From positions 124,001 through 188,000 of the forward strand of contig NZ_JAGPXY010000002.1 in the NCBI RefSeq assembly GCF_018070325.1: a stretch of DNA of 64,000 nucleotides, in the 5' to 3' direction. The first letter of the stretch is position 1; each line of letters begins with the position of its first letter. Under the pieces are notes generated by a model that saw nothing but the letters and a program-made list of their open reading frames with translations, was not told the origin of the DNA and searched no databases. A program made the translations under genes and the position numbers. Origin of the DNA: Micromonospora sp. H61. GTDB lineage: Bacteria > Actinomycetota > Actinomycetes > Mycobacteriales > Micromonosporaceae. Positions 3,172-26,894 of the stretch are shown here, in pieces.

Positions 3172-3789
3172 GTGGCCGCGCGGCTGATCAGCGGCAAACT
3201 GACCGGCCGCCCCGTCGAGGACGCGGTCGACCTCGGCCGGATCGAGAAAGCCGTCCGCGAGATCCTGATCGCGGTCGGCGAGGACCCGGACCGCGACGGA
3301 CTCCAGCAGACCCCGGCCCGGGTCGCCCGTGCGTACGCCGAACTCTTCGCCGGCCTGCGGGTCGACCCGGCCCAGGTGCTCAGTACCACCTTCGAGGCCA
3401 ACCACGAAGAGCTGGTCATCGTCCGGGACATCGACGTGATGAGCCTCTGTGAGCACCACCTGCTGCCCTTCCGGGGCAGCGCGCACATCGGCTACATCCC
3501 GGGCCCCGACGGGCGGATCACCGGCCTGTCCAAGTTGGCCCGACTCGTCGAGGTCTTCGCCCGTCGTCCGCAGGTGCAGGAACGGCTCACGTCGCAGGTC
3601 GCCGACCTGCTGATGAGCAAACTCGCACCACGCGGCGTCGTCGTCGTGCTCGAATGCGAACACATGTGCATGGCGATGCGCGGCATCCAGAAATCCGGTG
3701 CCAAGACCATCACGTCGGCCGTACGCGGCATCCTGCAGTCGGACTCCAAGTCGCGGGCCGAGGCGATGGCGCTGATCATCCCCCGCTGA
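3172..3789 (+). CDS. folE: GTP cyclohydrolase I
   Basis: First enzyme of tetrahydrofolate synthesis; converts GTP to dihydroneopterin triphosphate. The 205 residues hold the zinc-binding CEHHLLPF block and the later [14 protein letters not shown] block, which together supply the Cys/His ligands and active site, with [12 protein letters not shown] near the C-terminus. The GTG at 3172 is the only ATG or GTG between the ftsH stop and the conserved domain, although its ribosome binding site is weak. In many actinobacteria folE is followed directly by folP-folB-folK; here those genes lie 13 kb away beyond an inserted block. Confidence 0.96.
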
Positions 3790-3853
3790 CACCCCGACGC
3801 ACCACGGTCGGCCGACACCCATCCGGGACGGCCGGCCGTTGCGTTTCCCCCAC

Positions 3854-3880
3854 CCGCCCGGCGTCGTTCCGGCCGGGCGG
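3854..3880. terminator. Stem-loop between convergent folE and the 3898 gene
   Basis: Perfect 9-bp arms CCGCCCGGC / GCCGGGCGG (3854-3862 and 3872-3880) with a 9-nt loop, between two genes whose 3' ends face each other. It could act in both directions. No T-tract. Confidence 0.5.
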
Positions 3881-3897
3881 CCTTCCGGCCCGACGGG

Positions 3898-4617
3898 TCA
3901 GCCGGCGAGCAGCGCCAACAGCAGGCCGGCCGTGGCCAGCACCGCCGGCACCAGGCACACCAGCGCGCCGAAACGCACCGTACGGTCGAGCCGCTCGGTG
4001 GGGCTGACCCGGAACAACCGGCCAATGCCGATCCAACCGGCGACGAACGCGACCGCCGGCATCGGCAGCCCGCAGATCAACGCCGCCACAGTGGCCGGTC
4101 CCACCCCCGTCGTCGCCAGAACCACGACCTGGATCAGTGGCACCAGCAGCGCGAACGGCCCGTACACCAGGAGGTTGCGCGCCCGCGCGGGCCAGGACCC
4201 GGGCCGGAACCGGCGGCGCGCGGCCAGCGCAGCGTCCGCCGCCTCGGCCCAACCACGCGCCGTCCGCAGCGCCGCCAAAACGGCCGCCGGGCCACCCGCC
4301 ATCGACCGGGCCGCCTCGGTCAGCTCCGGCGGCGACGGCACCAGGGAGATCGCCGGTACGGCCAACTCGCGCAGCCGTTCCTGCTGACTCGCCAGCCCGG
4401 TACGGACCACCGTCAACTCCTCCCGGGCGGCCTCCGCCGACCGGGCCTGCTCACCGGCAGCTGTAGCCGCGCCCCGGCGTACCCCGTCCAACTGGCGGGC
4501 GGCCGCAAGATACTCCGTCCAGGCAGCGCTGGGCTCGACCGCCCGCGGCGTCGCGTCCCCGGTCGCCGCAGCTGCCCGCTGCCGCCCCGGCCCGGTCACC
4601 GTCGCGATCGGATCCAC
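3898..4617 (-). CDS. Coiled-coil membrane protein of unknown function
   Basis: I do not recognise this protein. From the GTG at 4617 it has about 239 residues: an Ala/Glu/Arg-rich helical stretch (about 15-75) that could form a coiled coil, then at the C-terminal end three or four hydrophobic segments, ending TAGLLLALLAG. The start is chosen because GGAGG lies 8 nt upstream; GTG codons at 4641 and 4632 are alternatives. It begins shortly after the stop of the FtsK-like gene, so the two are very probably one operon, and it may be that protein's membrane partner. Confidence 0.75.
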   Translation of the reverse strand: MDPIATVTGPGRQRAAAATGDATPRAVEPSAAWTEYLAAARQLDGVRRGAATAAGEQARSAEAAREELTVVRTGLASQQERLRELAVPAISLVPSPPELTEAARSMAGGPAAVLAALRTARGWAEAADAALAARRRFRPGSWPARARNLLVYGPFALLVPLIQVVVLATTGVGPATVAALICGLPMPAVAFVAGWIGIGRLFRVSPTERLDRTVRFGALVCLVPAVLATAGLLLALLAG

Positions 4618-21462: not shown

Positions 21463-22467
21463 TCAGCTGGTCGGGCGGCCGAGGTCGAGGAGGCGCTGTC
21501 GGCTGAGCGCGCCCACCGGCTGGCCGGCGTCGGTCACGAGGAGCCGGTCCCGGCCCGAGGTGAGCAGGACCGCCAACGCGTCGTACGCCGAGCCGTCGAC
21601 AGCGACGGTGGGCAGGTCCGGTGCGGCGTCCTCGGGCACCGGCTCCAGCGCCTCCCGGTCGAGCGGGGTGACCGCCAACCGGCGGATGCCCCGGTCGGCG
21701 CCGACGAACTCGCGTACGAACGCAGTGGCGGGTGCGCCGAGCAGTGCGGCCGGAGTGTCGTACTGCTCCAGGTGCCCGCCCTCGGAGAGGACCGCGATCC
21801 GGTCACCGAGCCGAACGGCCTCGTCGAGGTCGTGGGTGACCAGCACGATCGTCTTGCGCACCTCGGCCTGGAGGCGCAGGAACTCCTCCTGCAGGCGGGC
21901 CCGGACGATCGGGTCGACGGCCGAGAACGGCTCGTCCATCAACAGCACCACCGGGTCGGCGGCGAGCGCGCGAGCCACCCCGACCCGCTGCCGCTGGCCA
22001 CCCGACAGCTCGTGCGGGTAGCGCCCGCCGAACTCCGCCGGGTCCAGCCCGACCAGGTCGAGCAGCTCGTCGACCCGGGCCCGGGTCTGGCCCTTGGGCC
22101 AGCGGAGCAGGCCCGGCACGGTGGCCACGTTGGCTCGCACGGTCTGGTGTGGAAAGAGACCGACGTTCTGGATCACGTATCCGATTCGACGGCGCAGTCG
22201 CACCGGGTCGACGTTCGTGACGTCCTCGTCGCCGAGCGTGATGCGACCGGCGGTCGGTTCGATCAGGCGATTGATCATCCGCAGCACCGTCGACTTGCCG
22301 CAGCCGGACGGGCCGATCAGCACCACCAGCTCGCCGGCCCGGACCTCCAGGCTGAGGTCCCGGACAGCTTCGGTGCCGTTCGGGTAGCGCTTCTGGATGC
22401 CCTCCAGGGAGATCGACGCCGCGCGAGGGGACTGGGCCACGCTGGCAGCCTCCGGGGTAACGTCCAC
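21463..22467 (-). CDS. Osmolyte (betaine/choline-type) ABC transporter ATPase, OpuCA/ProV-like
   Basis: 334 residues. Walker A GPSGCGKST (about 53-61), signature LSGGQRQRVGVARAL, Walker B VVLLMDEPFSAVD and the switch VTHD. The C-terminal 80 residues hold one CBS-like unit (TVAVDGSAYDALAVL then RLLVTDAGQPVGALSR), as in OpuCA/ProV ATPases where CBS modules sense ionic strength. GTG start at 22467 with GGAAGGA 5 nt upstream. Divergent from the two permease genes; the start codons are only 2 nt apart. Substrate is inferred from the family. Confidence 0.92.
   Translation of the reverse strand: MDVTPEAASVAQSPRAASISLEGIQKRYPNGTEAVRDLSLEVRAGELVVLIGPSGCGKSTVLRMINRLIEPTAGRITLGDEDVTNVDPVRLRRRIGYVIQNVGLFPHQTVRANVATVPGLLRWPKGQTRARVDELLDLVGLDPAEFGGRYPHELSGGQRQRVGVARALAADPVVLLMDEPFSAVDPIVRARLQEEFLRLQAEVRKTIVLVTHDLDEAVRLGDRIAVLSEGGHLEQYDTPAALLGAPATAFVREFVGADRGIRRLAVTPLDREALEPVPEDAAPDLPTVAVDGSAYDALAVLLTSGRDRLLVTDAGQPVGALSRQRLLDLGRPTS
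22458..22463 (+). promoter_or_regulatory. Leaderless -10 box of the permease operon
   Basis: TAACGT, 6 nt before the ATG at 22470. It lies inside the first codons of the divergent ATPase gene (GTG at 22467, opposite strand), so the permease promoter is within the other gene's coding start. Confidence 0.5.
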
Positions 22468-22469
22468 GT

Positions 22470-23156
22470 ATGTCCTTCCGCCTGAGCTACCGGGCCGACC
22501 CGGGTAACCCCTGGTTCTCCTGGCAGTACGTGCGGGACAACTCTGACACGATCCTCGCCGCGGTGCGCGAACACGCCTCCCTCACCGGCCGAGCGGTGTT
22601 GATAGCGGTGCTGATCGCCCTGCCGTTGTCAGTGCTGGCGTACTGGGTCCGTCCGCTCGCCGGTCCGATCCTCGCTGTCAGCGGGGTGGTCTACACCATC
22701 CCGTCGTTGGCGCTCTTCGCGTTCATCGCCCCCTACCTGGGCACCGGGGCGACCACGGTGCTGGTCGGGCTGGTCCTCTACGCGCTGCTGCTGATCGTGC
22801 GCAACGTGGTGGCCGGTCTCAATCAGGTGCCTCCGGAGGTTCGCGAGGCCGCCGAGGGCATGGGTTACGGCCGCTGGAGGCGGCTGTTCCGGATCGACCT
22901 GCCGCTGGCGCTGCCGGGCATCGTCACCGGCGTACGGCTGGCGACGGTCTCGACTGTGGCGTTGGTCACGGTCGGGGTGCTGGTCGGGCACGGCGGGCTC
23001 GGGCAGTTGATCTTCGCGGGCTTCCAGAACAACCTCTACAAGGCCGAGATCATGACGGCCGCCCTGCTCTGCGTGGCGCTCGCTGTCGTGCTCGACCTGT
23101 TGCTCATCCTGGTCGCCCGACTGGTGACTCCCTGGTCCACCCGGAGGGCACGGTGA
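22470..23156 (+). CDS. Osmolyte ABC transporter permease, OpuCB/ProW-like
   Basis: 228 residues with about six membrane segments and the permease EAA loop (EVREAAEGMGYGRWRRLFRIDLPLALPGI region, 126-154), which docks on the ATPase. Typical short OpuCB/OpuCD-type length. The following permease overlaps by GTGA. Together with the divergent ATPase and the binding protein downstream it forms a complete importer. Confidence 0.93.
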   Translation: MSFRLSYRADPGNPWFSWQYVRDNSDTILAAVREHASLTGRAVLIAVLIALPLSVLAYWVRPLAGPILAVSGVVYTIPSLALFAFIAPYLGTGATTVLVGLVLYALLLIVRNVVAGLNQVPPEVREAAEGMGYGRWRRLFRIDLPLALPGIVTGVRLATVSTVALVTVGVLVGHGGLGQLIFAGFQNNLYKAEIMTAALLCVALAVVLDLLLILVARLVTPWSTRRAR

Positions 23157-23893
23157 CCGTCGCGGAAAACCCGATCGGGCAGGCCATCACCTGGATCAAC
23201 GACCCACTGAACTGGACGAACCCCGGCGGCATGCTGGACCGACTCGGCGAGCACCTGACGATCTCCGCCCTGGCGGTGGCGCTCGGCTGCCTGGTGGCCT
23301 GGCCGCTCGGGCTCTGGTTGGGGCACCTCGGTCGAGGTGGCGGCCTCGTGGTGCTGATCTCCAACGCGACCCTGGCCATCCCCACCCTGGCGCTGCTGAC
23401 CATCCTCCCGGTCGTCTTCGCCAGCGGCTTCGGGAAGACACCGGTCGTGGTGGCACTGGCTGTCTTCGCCGTGCCGCCGCTGCTGGCCAACGCGTACACC
23501 GGGGTGCGGCAGGTGGACCCGGAGGCCCGCGACGCGGCCCGGGGGATGGGTCTGTCCGGCGGGCAGCTGCTGCGCCGGGTGGAGTTGCCGCTCGCGGTGC
23601 CCTACCTGGCGGCCGGCTTCCGCACCGCGGCGGTCCAGGTGATCGCGACCGCGGCGCTGGCCTCCTTCGTCAACGGCGGCGGCCTGGGCCAGATCATCCG
23701 GACCGGCTTCGGTATCGGTATCGCGGCCGGCGGCGGGCAGATCGTCGCCGGCGGTGTGCTGGTGGCCGGGCTCGCGTTGCTGGCCGAGGTGGTCCTCGGC
23801 GGCGTCGAACGGCTGGTCACCCCCAAGCCGCTGCGGCGCGGGCGGCAGCGCCTCGGGCGGCCCCGGGCCGCCGACGCCACCGGGAGCGCCTGA
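23153..23893 (+). CDS. Osmolyte ABC transporter permease, OpuCD-like
   Basis: 246 residues from the GTG at 23153 (GTGA overlap with the first permease). Six membrane segments; EAA loop with ARDAARGMGLSGGQLLRRVE (about 124-143). The second half of a heterodimeric permease. The basic C-terminal tail (LRRGRQRLGRPR) is cytosolic. A 200-nt gap separates it from the binding-protein gene, leaving room for a separate promoter. Confidence 0.93.
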   Translation: MTVAENPIGQAITWINDPLNWTNPGGMLDRLGEHLTISALAVALGCLVAWPLGLWLGHLGRGGGLVVLISNATLAIPTLALLTILPVVFASGFGKTPVVVALAVFAVPPLLANAYTGVRQVDPEARDAARGMGLSGGQLLRRVELPLAVPYLAAGFRTAAVQVIATAALASFVNGGGLGQIIRTGFGIGIAAGGGQIVAGGVLVAGLALLAEVVLGGVERLVTPKPLRRGRQRLGRPRAADATGSA

Positions 23894-24093
23894 CCCGTCC
23901 GGGTGAGAGCGCGGCGAGCTGACGACCCACGCCCGTCAAATCGGTGACGATGGGGTGACGAAGTCCATCCCAAGTTGTCGGTCGGTTCCGGAGCATGTTG
24001 GGTGGACATTCGCGGGCGGCCGACAGTCAGGATCGCCCGTCGGACACGCGGCCGGCCCGGAACGGGCCGCGCCGGGACACGGAAGGCGGGCAC

Positions 24094-25098
24094 ATGCGCG
24101 CACGTACACGTCTGGCGATCGGGGCGGTCAGCGCCGTCGCCGGGGCAGCACTCCTCACCGGCTGCGGTGACGCCGGCTCGTCCGGCACCGACGCACCCCA
24201 GACGAGCGCCTCCGGCGCCGGGTGCGCCCCGGTCGCCGGCCAGCAGCTCATCGCTCTGCAGGACGACAAGAAGCTCCAGAACTCCGACAACGTCATTCCC
24301 GCTGTCAACAGCAAGGCGGCGAATCCGCAGCTGATCGCCGCACTGGACAAGGTCTCCGCCGCGCTCGACACCCCGAAGCTGATCCAGCTCAACAAGGCCG
24401 TCAACGAGGACCGCAAGACCCCCAAGGTGGCGGCCGAGGAGTTCGCCAGCGCGAACAACCTCACCGCGGGCATCGCCAAGGGGCCGGGCGGTGACATCAC
24501 TGTGGGCGCTGGCAACTTCGCCGAGAGTCAGATCCTGGGCGAGCTGTACCGGATCGCGCTCACCGCCGCCGGCTACCAGGTCAAGGTGCAGCAGATCGGC
24601 AACCGGGAGCTCTACGCGCCGGCCCTGGAGAAGGGCGAGATCCAGGTCGTCCCGGAGTACGCGGCGACCATGGCCGAGTTCCTCAACACCAAGGCCAACG
24701 GCCAGAACGCCCAGCCGATCTCCTCGCCGGACGTCAACACGACGGTGACCGCGCTGAAGGCCGAGGGCGACAAGGCCGGCCTCACCTTCGGCACCCCGGC
24801 CGCCGCGCAGGACCAGAACGCCTTCGCGGTGACCCAGGCATTCGCCGACAAGTACGGCGTGCGGACCCTCTCCGAGCTGGCCGCGAAGTGCTCCGGTAGC
24901 GCGACAGTGCTGGGTGGCCCGCCGGAGTGCGAGCAGCGTCCGTTCTGCAAGCCGGGCCTGGAGAAGACCTACGGGCTGTCGGTCGGCAAGTTCTCCTCCC
25001 TGGACCAGGGCGGGCCGCTGACCAAGAGCGGGCTGCGCGACGGCTCGATCAGCGTGGGTCTGATCTTCTCCTCGGATGGCGCCTTCGCCACCAGCTGA
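24094..25098 (+). CDS. Lipoprotein substrate-binding protein of the OpuC/ProX family with circularly permuted domain order
   Basis: 334 residues, lipoprotein signal with lipobox LLTGC, GGAAGG 7 nt before the ATG. The segment that normally ends OpuAC-type binding proteins (LxDDK, then PAV/PVV, a helix pair, LNKxV, and VAxEF) is here near residues 47-120: LIALQDDKKLQNSDNVIP then VAAEEFASANNL. The segment that normally begins the domain follows at about 131-155: ITVGAGNFAESQILGELYRI. The protein ends with VGLIFSSDGAFATS, which in canonical relatives runs straight into the LxDDK strand. All parts are present but the order is rotated. It should still bind an osmolyte such as glycine betaine; the ligand is not proven. 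Confidence 0.9.
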   Translation: MRARTRLAIGAVSAVAGAALLTGCGDAGSSGTDAPQTSASGAGCAPVAGQQLIALQDDKKLQNSDNVIPAVNSKAANPQLIAALDKVSAALDTPKLIQLNKAVNEDRKTPKVAAEEFASANNLTAGIAKGPGGDITVGAGNFAESQILGELYRIALTAAGYQVKVQQIGNRELYAPALEKGEIQVVPEYAATMAEFLNTKANGQNAQPISSPDVNTTVTALKAEGDKAGLTFGTPAAAQDQNAFAVTQAFADKYGVRTLSELAAKCSGSATVLGGPPECEQRPFCKPGLEKTYGLSVGKFSSLDQGGPLTKSGLRDGSISVGLIFSSDGAFATS

Positions 25099-25208: not shown

Positions 25209-26894
25209 ATGCCAGCCCCGGCCACCTCTGACGCCCGGCGTCAACCACTGCTGCTGACCATGCTCTTCTGGGCGGGCGTCGCGCTCGCGCCGGTGGCGGC
25301 GCTGATCCTGCTGGTGGCCGACGGCAATGGCCCGCTGCGTTTCGCCGCGGTGCTCGCCATCCTCGCGGTGGTGCTGATCGGCCTCTCCATCGCGTTGCGG
25401 CCCGACGGCGAGGGCGCCTCGGCGCGGACCGACGAATTGCTGGACGAGATCGAGGAACTGCGTCGGGAGCTGCGCGGCGAGATCGTGGCCGCCGCCCAGC
25501 GCGGTAACCAGGCCCTCGACCAGGCGCAACGGGCCCACGAGGGGATCGCCGCGGTGCGCCGCCGTCTCGACGCCAGCGGTGCCGCCCTCGCCGGTGCCGC
25601 CCCCACTGTCGAGCCGGCGGGCGCCGGACGGGCGCGGGTGGCTGCCGTCGAGCCGCCGGTGGACGACACGCCGGTGGCCCGTAACCGTGGCGACGCGCCG
25701 GCCGGCCGAGCCCGGGTGTCCGGCCCCGACGACGCGCCCCGGTGGGGGCGCCCCGAGCACGCGGACGACGACGAGCCGGCGTACGCCCGGGAGGCCCCCG
25801 AGCCGCCGGCCGCCGCCGGGATGTACGGCGGGGAACGGCCGGCCGCCACCGCGTACGGCTCGGCCCGTCCCCGGGAGCACGACCGCCCCGAGGCCGCGCA
25901 CCGGCCGGGTGGCGTGGTCCGACACACCGAGACCGTGCACGTCACCACCCGGCACACGGTGGTGGACGGTGGCCCGGCCGAGCCGGCCGGGCGCTACGGC
26001 GGCGGGTACGCCGGTCAGTGGACCGCACCCGCGCAGGAGTGGACCCGCGGCGACGCCGATCAGCCCCCGCGGCCGTCCGGCCGGGCGAGGAGCGAGCCGG
26101 AGCAGCACCCCAGGGCCGGGTACGGCGACGAGCCGGGCTGGACGGGCCGCCGCGACGAACCGGAGTGGACCGATCGGCGTGACGCCTACGCCCAGCCCGA
26201 CGAGCCCGCCCCGGCGGCCCGGTCACACCGCACCCCGGAGAGACCGGCGGCGGAATCCTGGGACAGCCCTGACGACCGGGGCTGGTCGGAGCAGCGCGAC
26301 CGGACGGGGGCCGCCGCACCGCAGCCCGGGCCGCCGCTGCGGGCCGACGACACCGGCGAGTACTGGTCGCAGTTGCGGGCCGGTGACCGGTGGGCCGCCG
26401 TCCGCGACGTCGAGAACGGTCGCGAGTTGCGGGTCGGCGAACGTCGGGCCGAGGTGCACGCCGACGCCACCGGCACCGAGTACCGGGTGGCCGACCGCTG
26501 GGCCGCCGTCCGTCACGAGGAGCCGCGCCGTGACGAGGACGCCGCCCGCTACGAGGAACCGCGCCGTCACGAGGAACCGCGCCGTCACGAGGAACCGCGC
26601 CGCCACGAGGACGCCGGCCGCTACGAGGAGCCGCGCCGCCACGAGGCCGCCGGCCGGTATGAAGAACCCCGCCGCCACGACGGTGGTCGACGGGTCGAGC
26701 CGGGAAGGCCCGCGCTGCCGGTGGGCGGTGTGCCGGTGCCGGACGAGTGGCGCCCACCGCGCCAACGCGGCCACCAGGCGGAACCCGCGCCGGAACGGAC
26801 CGGCCGGCGGCGGGTCGACGAGCGCTACGGCTACCCGCCGCAGGACGACGTGCCGCGTGCCGGCGGCGCGCCACCCACCGACCGCTGGCGGTGA
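25209..26894 (+). CDS. Membrane protein with coiled coil and long disordered charged tail
   Basis: 561 residues, no recognised family. Two membrane segments near the N-terminus (about 15-38 and 43-62), a coiled-coil-like helix (about 75-125, DELLDEIEELRRELRGE), then some 430 residues rich in Arg, Glu, Pro, Gly and Asp that look disordered. The tail holds DRWAAVR twice (26386 and 26491) and a tandem block of the hexapeptide RRHEEP (26511-26681). Such proteins often act as cytosolic scaffolds tethered to the membrane; that is inference only. Confidence 0.8.
   Translation: MPAPATSDARRQPLLLTMLFWAGVALAPVAALILLVADGNGPLRFAAVLAILAVVLIGLSIALRPDGEGASARTDELLDEIEELRRELRGEIVAAAQRGNQALDQAQRAHEGIAAVRRRLDASGAALAGAAPTVEPAGAGRARVAAVEPPVDDTPVARNRGDAPAGRARVSGPDDAPRWGRPEHADDDEPAYAREAPEPPAAAGMYGGERPAATAYGSARPREHDRPEAAHRPGGVVRHTETVHVTTRHTVVDGGPAEPAGRYGGGYAGQWTAPAQEWTRGDADQPPRPSGRARSEPEQHPRAGYGDEPGWTGRRDEPEWTDRRDAYAQPDEPAPAARSHRTPERPAAESWDSPDDRGWSEQRDRTGAAAPQPGPPLRADDTGEYWSQLRAGDRWAAVRDVENGRELRVGERRAEVHADATGTEYRVADRWAAVRHEEPRRDEDAARYEEPRRHEEPRRHEEPRRHEDAGRYEEPRRHEAAGRYEEPRRHDGGRRVEPGRPALPVGGVPVPDEWRPPRQRGHQAEPAPERTGRRRVDERYGYPPQDDVPRAGGAPPTDRWR
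26511..26681 (+). repeat. Tandem 18-bp coding repeats (hexapeptide RRHEEP and variants)
   Basis: Perfect and near-perfect 18-bp units such as CGTCACGAGGAACCGCGC encode RHEEPR; three identical peptide units are followed by variants with HEDAGRYEEP and HEAAGRYEEP. The near-identity at DNA level points to recent slippage or duplication, so copy number probably varies between strains. Confidence 0.8.

Follow-up and report, generated by a model that had tools for sequence, protein, structure and literature searches.

The window, the whole stretch of 64,000 nucleotides that was analysed, comes from Micromonospora sp. H61 and carries a gene for a predicted binding lipoprotein beside the genes of an ABC importer (Table 1). 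The open reading frame at 24094-25098 on the forward strand, delimited in the same way by the initial annotation, translates to a lipoprotein of 334 amino acids, and Cys24, the expected lipid carrier, is invariant in alignments A1 and A2. OpuAC (PF04069) is the only Pfam family found in the protein, where it is split into two stretches. The match to the OsmF equivalog NF049931 scores 62.8 bits against an NCBI cut-off of 400 bits, which places the protein outside that equivalog. The sequence GGGACACGGAAGGCGG at 24074-24089, immediately ahead of the start codon, is most simply read as an extended ribosome-binding site; it is kept in 6 of 36 C-A-B rows of the tree described below, all from Micromonosporaceae. 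The listed start codons of the divergent ATPase and permease 1 frames are separated by two bases (22460-22475), and the ATPase has a weak CBS match under Pfam's cut-off. The next open reading frame downstream (25209-26894) encodes 561 residues, the C-terminal half of which is of low complexity with repeated EEPRRHEE-like units. The lipoprotein signal and the adjoining permease and ATPase genes are those of a binding lipoprotein of a type I ABC importer. The product would thus be the substrate-binding lipoprotein of the importer encoded by these genes, and the C-A-B protein is very likely a working subunit of it, a role that is well supported computationally.

Table 1. Features of the importer locus and of the binding lipoprotein gene (positions in the window).
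Feature	Position	Strand	Basis
ABC ATPase, divergent from the permease genes	21463..22467	-	Pfam ABC_tran 1.6e-36
ABC permease 1	22470..23156	+	Pfam BPD_transp_1 2.3e-20
ABC permease 2	23153..23893	+	Pfam BPD_transp_1 1.7e-20
Signal peptide and lipobox LLTGC; Cys24 expected lipid carrier	24094..24165	+	sequence
Cys44, in the new N-terminal tail just ahead of block C	24223..24225	+	codon tgc
Block C, residues 50-128; canonical C-terminal part, here first	24241..24477	+	profiles, rotation
Block A, residues 131-267; canonical N-terminal part	24484..24894	+	Pfam, segment profiles, VIA-align
Cys266, end of helix 259-266 in the model; putative partner of Cys44 in a disulfide	24889..24891	+	pairing inferred
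Block B, residues 268-334; lobe 2, ends VGLIFSSDGAFATS	24895..25095	+	Pfam, segment profiles, alignment

For the segment profiles the OpuAC domain was cut into three blocks by the numbering of the window protein (C, 49-123; A, 131-267; B, 268-332), canonical proteins having the order A-B-C. Every part of the domain is present once in the window protein, in the order C-A-B and neither A-B-C nor B-C-A. Block C carries the motif series LxDDK...PAV...LNKAV...VAAEEF, and block A runs from ITVGAGNFAES to the end of the first helix of lobe 2. The swapped order had been noticed in the initial annotation, the details of which hold: L55-Q-D57-D58-K59, IPAV (68-71), LNKAV (99-103) and VAAEEF (112-117) all precede ITVGAGNFAESQILGELYRI (from 135), and the chain ends with VGLIFSSDGAFATS at 321-334. 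The two stretches matched by the OpuAC HMM, as had been foreseen, fuse on re-ordering into one match covering positions 2-255 of the 257-position profile, with a rise from 129.4 to 142 bits (gathering score, 21.2 bits). In a rotation scan the start of the mature chain was slid in steps of three residues, and each version was scored with a profile built from 18 canonical relatives. The highest single-match score of the window protein was 251.3 bits with the native start, rose to 322.9 bits for starts at 122-131 and fell to about 152 bits at bad cuts. The canonical control L185, one of the 18, peaked at its own native start; the B-C-A protein L030 went from 183.7 to 332.0 bits. The best match among PDB sequences, OsmF (4wep), improved from 41.0 to 52.8 bits on re-ordering, as a single alignment over 7-277. 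None of the 27 PDB sequences matching up to E 1 aligned in a single stretch from block C through block B.

It could be argued that the first 120 residues belong to some unrelated domain or linker, with the OpuAC domain simply missing its last part, as the second OpuAC stretch is weaker than the first in native order. This reading is very improbable and was rejected on the VIA-align results, the rotation scan and the re-ordered Pfam match: block C is 35-42% identical to the C-terminal parts of the five canonical proteins with a BLAST-reported match, restores the full-length profile match once moved, is modelled with high confidence, and falls inside the stretch aligned to OpuAC 2b4l. A canonical C-terminal part was absent from the three forward frames after the stop codon of the window gene. 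When the 500 bases following each of 198 permuted genes (C-A-B and B-C-A taken together) were scanned with the block C profile, matches were confined to three loci with a tandem copy of the gene. Leftover pieces of A or B ahead of the permuted genes, or of C behind them, were likewise not found outside the tandem-copy loci in 199 upstream and 198 downstream flanks; the single other flank match was of block B behind L171 (E 0.83).

The AlphaFold2 model, built from a 48-row alignment, has a mean pLDDT of 84.9 and a pTM of 0.77; 23 of 30 ten-residue blocks from residue 41 onward are at pLDDT 90 or higher, and residues 1-36 are below 50. VIA-align places residues 131-334 (A-B) on residues 1-199 of 7s7w (Z 14.7, rmsd 2.5 Å) and on 3o66 (Z 14.5, rmsd 2.2 Å), and residues 38-264 (C-A) on residues 5-272 of Bacillus subtilis OpuAC 2b4l (Z 16.0, rmsd 4.4 Å over 193 residues, about 14% identity). 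Since a sequential aligner can trace no more than two of the three blocks, this pair of results is as expected for a C-A-B chain. Target-normalised Foldseek TM-scores to single PDB chains were at most 0.55 among the 50 matches listed, which is expected for a permuted chain but is not positive proof of one. The model has the OpuAC fold, as the initial annotation had proposed should be checked by structure prediction and alignment; the N-terminal part is not unrelated, and there is no second canonical C-terminus. The structural marks of a circular permutation are found: parts present once, order rotated, the old place free of remnants, and the fold kept in the model. With the rotation tests, the model and its structural matches, and the tree (below) in agreement, the window gene is almost certainly a circular permutant of order C-A-B with the fold kept.

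The full-length gene was found in 25 of 25 genomes of a genus sample, the window's own included. Another genome of the genus, G167, was without a match in the family and order searches, in which 14 and 10 of its 19 candidates were scored. Counting rows with a match from residue 24 or earlier to residue 330 or later, the C-A-B form occurs in 113 of 150 genomes sampled from the family, 61 of 200 from the order (plus one split and one contig-end copy) and 15 of 345 from the class; absences are soft, as genome searches often scored part of each genome's candidates. Within the 113 genomes, the copy of G063 has an internal stop and G048 has two copies; G102 of the same sample carries a contig-end piece of the gene, and genera such as g27 and g55 gave no C-A-B match. 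Carriers in the order sample belong to groups f1, f5, f7, f10, f13 and f16, to which the class sample adds f23, f43 and f54, giving nine actinobacterial family groups in total. At E 1e-70 the phylum sample gave matches in 2 of 296 genomes, and these two belong to the genus of the window. Named records with the C-A-B order include many of Micromonospora, Salinispora, Actinoplanes-like genera, Asanoa and Phytohabitans; the closest are those of M. arida and M. saelicesensis at 99% identity (the records of the own genome were possibly excluded). The C-A-B form is old, widespread and conserved, and the spread within Micromonosporaceae, which had been listed as a point to check, extends to those 113 genomes. 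Three loci of group f16 (L186, L187 and L188, from G313, G269 and G239) carry two C-A-B genes in tandem. At L205 (G200), about 3300-4290, the C-A-B gene is split over two frames, by a real frameshift or an assembly error.

The same counts bear on whether a frameshift, a misassembly or a wrong start mimics the permutation of a canonical gene. For it speak the reading frame, which can be extended by 33 codons upstream of 24094, and the split gene of G200. This explanation is nevertheless extremely improbable: whole-chain C-A-B matches recur across the family (113 of 150 genomes, the copy of G063 having an internal stop) and the order (61 of 200), and a canonical C-terminus was found downstream neither in the frames after the window gene nor with the block C profile. 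It was rejected on the conservation of the C-A-B order across genomes.

Among the loci gathered, segment profiles assigned 189 proteins to C-A-B, 29 to A-B-C and 11 to B-C-A (143, 29 and 11 distinct ones), beside three partial proteins; these counts and the cysteine counts below, over 229 proteins, include some genes fetched twice. The eleven B-C-A proteins (L030 of G040, and L166-L175) are actinobacterial OpuAC lipoproteins. Three blocks allow three circular orders, and all three are found, so that C-A-B is the third and last. A first tree used 53 of 206 rows, after near-identical ones had been dropped; two changes are needed for C-A-B in it, and a single clade is not rejected (AU p 0.356). 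A second tree, made from re-ordered blocks with 70 rows (36 C-A-B, 27 A-B-C, 7 B-C-A), left out further near-copies, the long-branch rows L026 and L183, and L206-L208 (copies of L209-L211). Here the 36 C-A-B rows form a single clade (99/95) nested among canonical rows, which emerged only with canonical relatives added and the two long rows dropped. The seven B-C-A rows form a clade with 79/88 (98/97 in the first tree), which lies inside a distant canonical clade, across a 100/100 branch from C-A-B. The two permutations are therefore best read as independent, since they fall in distant canonical clades.

Gene order was compared along with the tree. An ATPase is visible in 107 C-A-B loci, and in 101 of these it is reversed and followed by permease, permease and binding protein (98 plain and three with a tandem second copy of the binding protein); another 79 C-A-B loci are too short for the ATPase or have none visible. 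The divergent-ATPase order also occurs in 13 of 29 A-B-C loci (e.g., L025, L176, L177 and L178). The ATPase is in line in 9 of 11 B-C-A loci and in seven A-B-C loci. Gene order agrees with the tree, and each permutation therefore seems to have arisen in situ, without a change of operon type. Fusion of tandem copies followed by trimming is the textbook route to a circular permutation and a possible one here, as the initial annotation had proposed beside a rearrangement. Duplication intermediates such as C-A-B-C were not seen among the gathered proteins, which were fetched by family similarity.

The position of the new ends was mapped through EgtUC, in which, according to the accessible part of the EgtUC paper, lobe 1 comprises residues 233-331 and 445-506 and lobe 2 residues 341-432, with linkers between. 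Residues 242, 65 and 325 of the window protein align with EgtUC residues 341, 443 and 419. In this mapping the C-terminus (334) and block C residues 50-54 meet within the last loop of lobe 2, and the cut would thus lie in that loop, about five residues ahead of the second hinge linker. The initial annotation had put the new ends at one hinge of the lobes; by the EgtUC alignment they lie beside the hinge, in the last lobe-2 loop, and not in the hinge itself. The cut of the B-C-A proteins would be near EgtUC residue 365, likewise in lobe 2. Lobe 1 of the window protein would be one continuous piece, at about residues 67-232. The chain would begin with the last strand of lobe 2 and cross the hinge, the whole of lobe 1 would form as a single continuous piece before the chain crosses back, and the rest of lobe 2 would be formed last, after the second crossing. 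The lipid anchor, which in canonical proteins precedes lobe 1 and leaves from it, would here precede a strand of lobe 2 and emerge from that lobe, close to the hinge.

Cys44 and Cys266 were sought in the two joint regions of the 229 proteins. Of the 189 C-A-B proteins, 184 have the two residues and the remaining five have neither, with no protein having one alone; they are absent from all 29 A-B-C and all 11 B-C-A proteins. The 70 rows of the tree give the same picture (C-A-B: both in 31, neither in 5, single in 0; neither in the 27 A-B-C and 7 B-C-A rows). The five C-A-B proteins lacking both show that the pair is not required for the permuted order; they are rows of group f10 and the first to branch inside the C-A-B clade. 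From this branching the simplest reading is that the permutation came first and was followed by one joint gain of the disulfide, and one gain on one branch could account for the whole pattern. A Cys44-Cys266 disulfide probably forms, as the co-occurrence of the two residues suggests, and would hold the new tail at the N-terminus to lobe 2, next to the cut. A less probable alternative is that the two are not paired with each other, but serve the lipid-proximal tail or pair with Cys279 or Cys285, which occur throughout (36/36 C-A-B and 19/19 near A-B-C rows). However, near relatives that lack 44 and 266 already have Cys279 and Cys285 as an even pair, and 44 and 266 are found only together, never singly, which favours the Cys44-Cys266 bridge.

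Pocket residues were compared in 36 C-A-B and 19 near A-B-C rows with those of EgtUC and AfProX, the latter as tabulated in the accessible part of PMC10087775. The equivalents of the EgtUC cage residues are Y189 (F293), N242 (Y341), F325 (Y419) and D65 (Y443), and further pocket equivalents are D240 (N339), E278 (E375) and R282 (R379). Y189 and E278 are present in all rows of both sets, N242 and R282 in 36/36 C-A-B and 18/19 near A-B-C rows, D65 in 34/36 and 19/19, and D240 in 33/36 and 15/19; F325 is less steady (F in 29/36 and 9/19). The permutation has thus left the pocket largely unchanged, these residues being common to both forms. The four-aromatic cage of cluster F-III quaternary-ammonium binders is incomplete, with aromatic residues at two positions (Y189, F325) and non-aromatic ones at the other two (N242, D65). 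Of the carboxylate contacts K242, T296 and R379 named for EgtUC, the last two are kept as T192 and R282; K242 lies outside the aligned fragment, and by position G140 would stand at its place. OpuBC and OpuCC have no lysine of the EgtUC K242 type.

With two of the four betaine-cage aromatics absent, the label 'osmolyte-binding' of the initial annotation is unproven in its first half; the assignment to the OpuAC-family solute-binding type stands. A small polar solute is the probable ligand. Quaternary ammonium osmolytes are possible candidates but not the favoured ones, and a betaine-like ligand is rather unlikely on the pocket residues. The replacements N242 and D65 might also suggest a genuine C-A-B variant that no longer binds a solute and acts in some other way, such as sensing or serving as a decoy lipoprotein. 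This is quite improbable, because the same replacements occur in near canonical relatives and the transporter genes remain adjacent to the C-A-B gene. A binding lipoprotein of an ABC importer, with its OpuAC domain permuted to C-A-B, is the preferred explanation of the whole, with a probability of roughly 0.85.

Glycine betaine-binding proteins, namely 2B4L, 1R9L and 1SW1, were reported in 2008 to show circular permutation relative to one another (PMC2395249, in a section that gives neither the permuted pair nor the cut points). The arrangement had initially been taken as undescribed for the family, which does not apply to permutation as such in view of that report; it does apply to the C-A-B order as far as was searched, and no description of a C-A-B OpuAC protein was found among the best 10 to 20 papers listed per search, in a literature largely without subscription journals. 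A profile of ten B-C-A proteins matched canonical chains in two stretches each and gave no match to B. subtilis OpuAC up to E 10. On the VIA-align match, the published relation (from its accessible part) and its sequence, which we take to be consistent with this order, B. subtilis OpuAC appears to be B-C-A.

B. subtilis OpuAC (2B4L, 2B4M, 3CHG, 5NXX) shares the OpuAC fold with the window protein and is the best structural match of the model, with C-A in one run, but differs in its apparent B-C-A order and in sequence, at the low identity given above. The canonical proteins ProX, OpuCC, OpuBC, EgtUC and OsmF (1SW1, 3PPN, 3R6U, 7TXL, 4WEP) consist of the same blocks and are matched over about 131-334, but in the order A-B-C; EgtUC and AfProX have four cage aromatics in the accessible descriptions, the window protein two. 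Canonical actinobacterial relatives (L218-L221, L176, L177, L025) have a largely equal pocket and share Cys279 and Cys285, but are A-B-C and lack Cys44 and Cys266. The B-C-A clade likewise consists of permuted OpuAC lipoproteins beside ABC genes, with a different cut, a separate origin, and ATPase, two permeases and binding protein in line (in the 9 of 11 loci noted). TpMglB-2 (Tp0684) of Treponema pallidum is described in the accessible part of PMC4990184 as a naturally permuted, tethered glucose-binding ABC protein that still binds its ligand, the permutation being suggested to be linked to membrane tethering. It resembles the window protein as predicted here in being a naturally permuted, tethered ABC binding protein, but has, in the same source, a cluster B sugar-binding fold in which the permutation adds a fourth lobe crossing.

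A broader history, to which we give about even odds, is that one family realised all three circular orders, with two independent permutations in actinobacteria, the Cys44-Cys266 disulfide being gained jointly after the C-A-B permutation and replacing the lost backbone link near the hinge, while the anchor moved from lobe 1 to lobe 2 with the same transporter and pocket retained. Where annotation relies on the best domain hit, such differences in chain order stay hidden. The tandem C-A-B genes of f16 are a natural substrate for further fusion or permutation. In the C-A-B protein of these soil actinobacteria the same clam-shell fold is apparently kept, as modelled, despite the chain being cut elsewhere. 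Engineered sensors are often built on binding proteins, and the sites at which these may be cut are of practical interest. The canonical, B-C-A and C-A-B forms coexist in related actinobacteria with comparable gene neighbourhoods, and two independent permutations with a staged history, first the permutation and then the cysteine pair, make up a natural test system for the effects of new chain ends. It would be testable how ends near the hinge affect opening, closing and affinity, whether the disulfide compensates for them, and whether it matters for docking on the permeases which lobe carries the lipid anchor.
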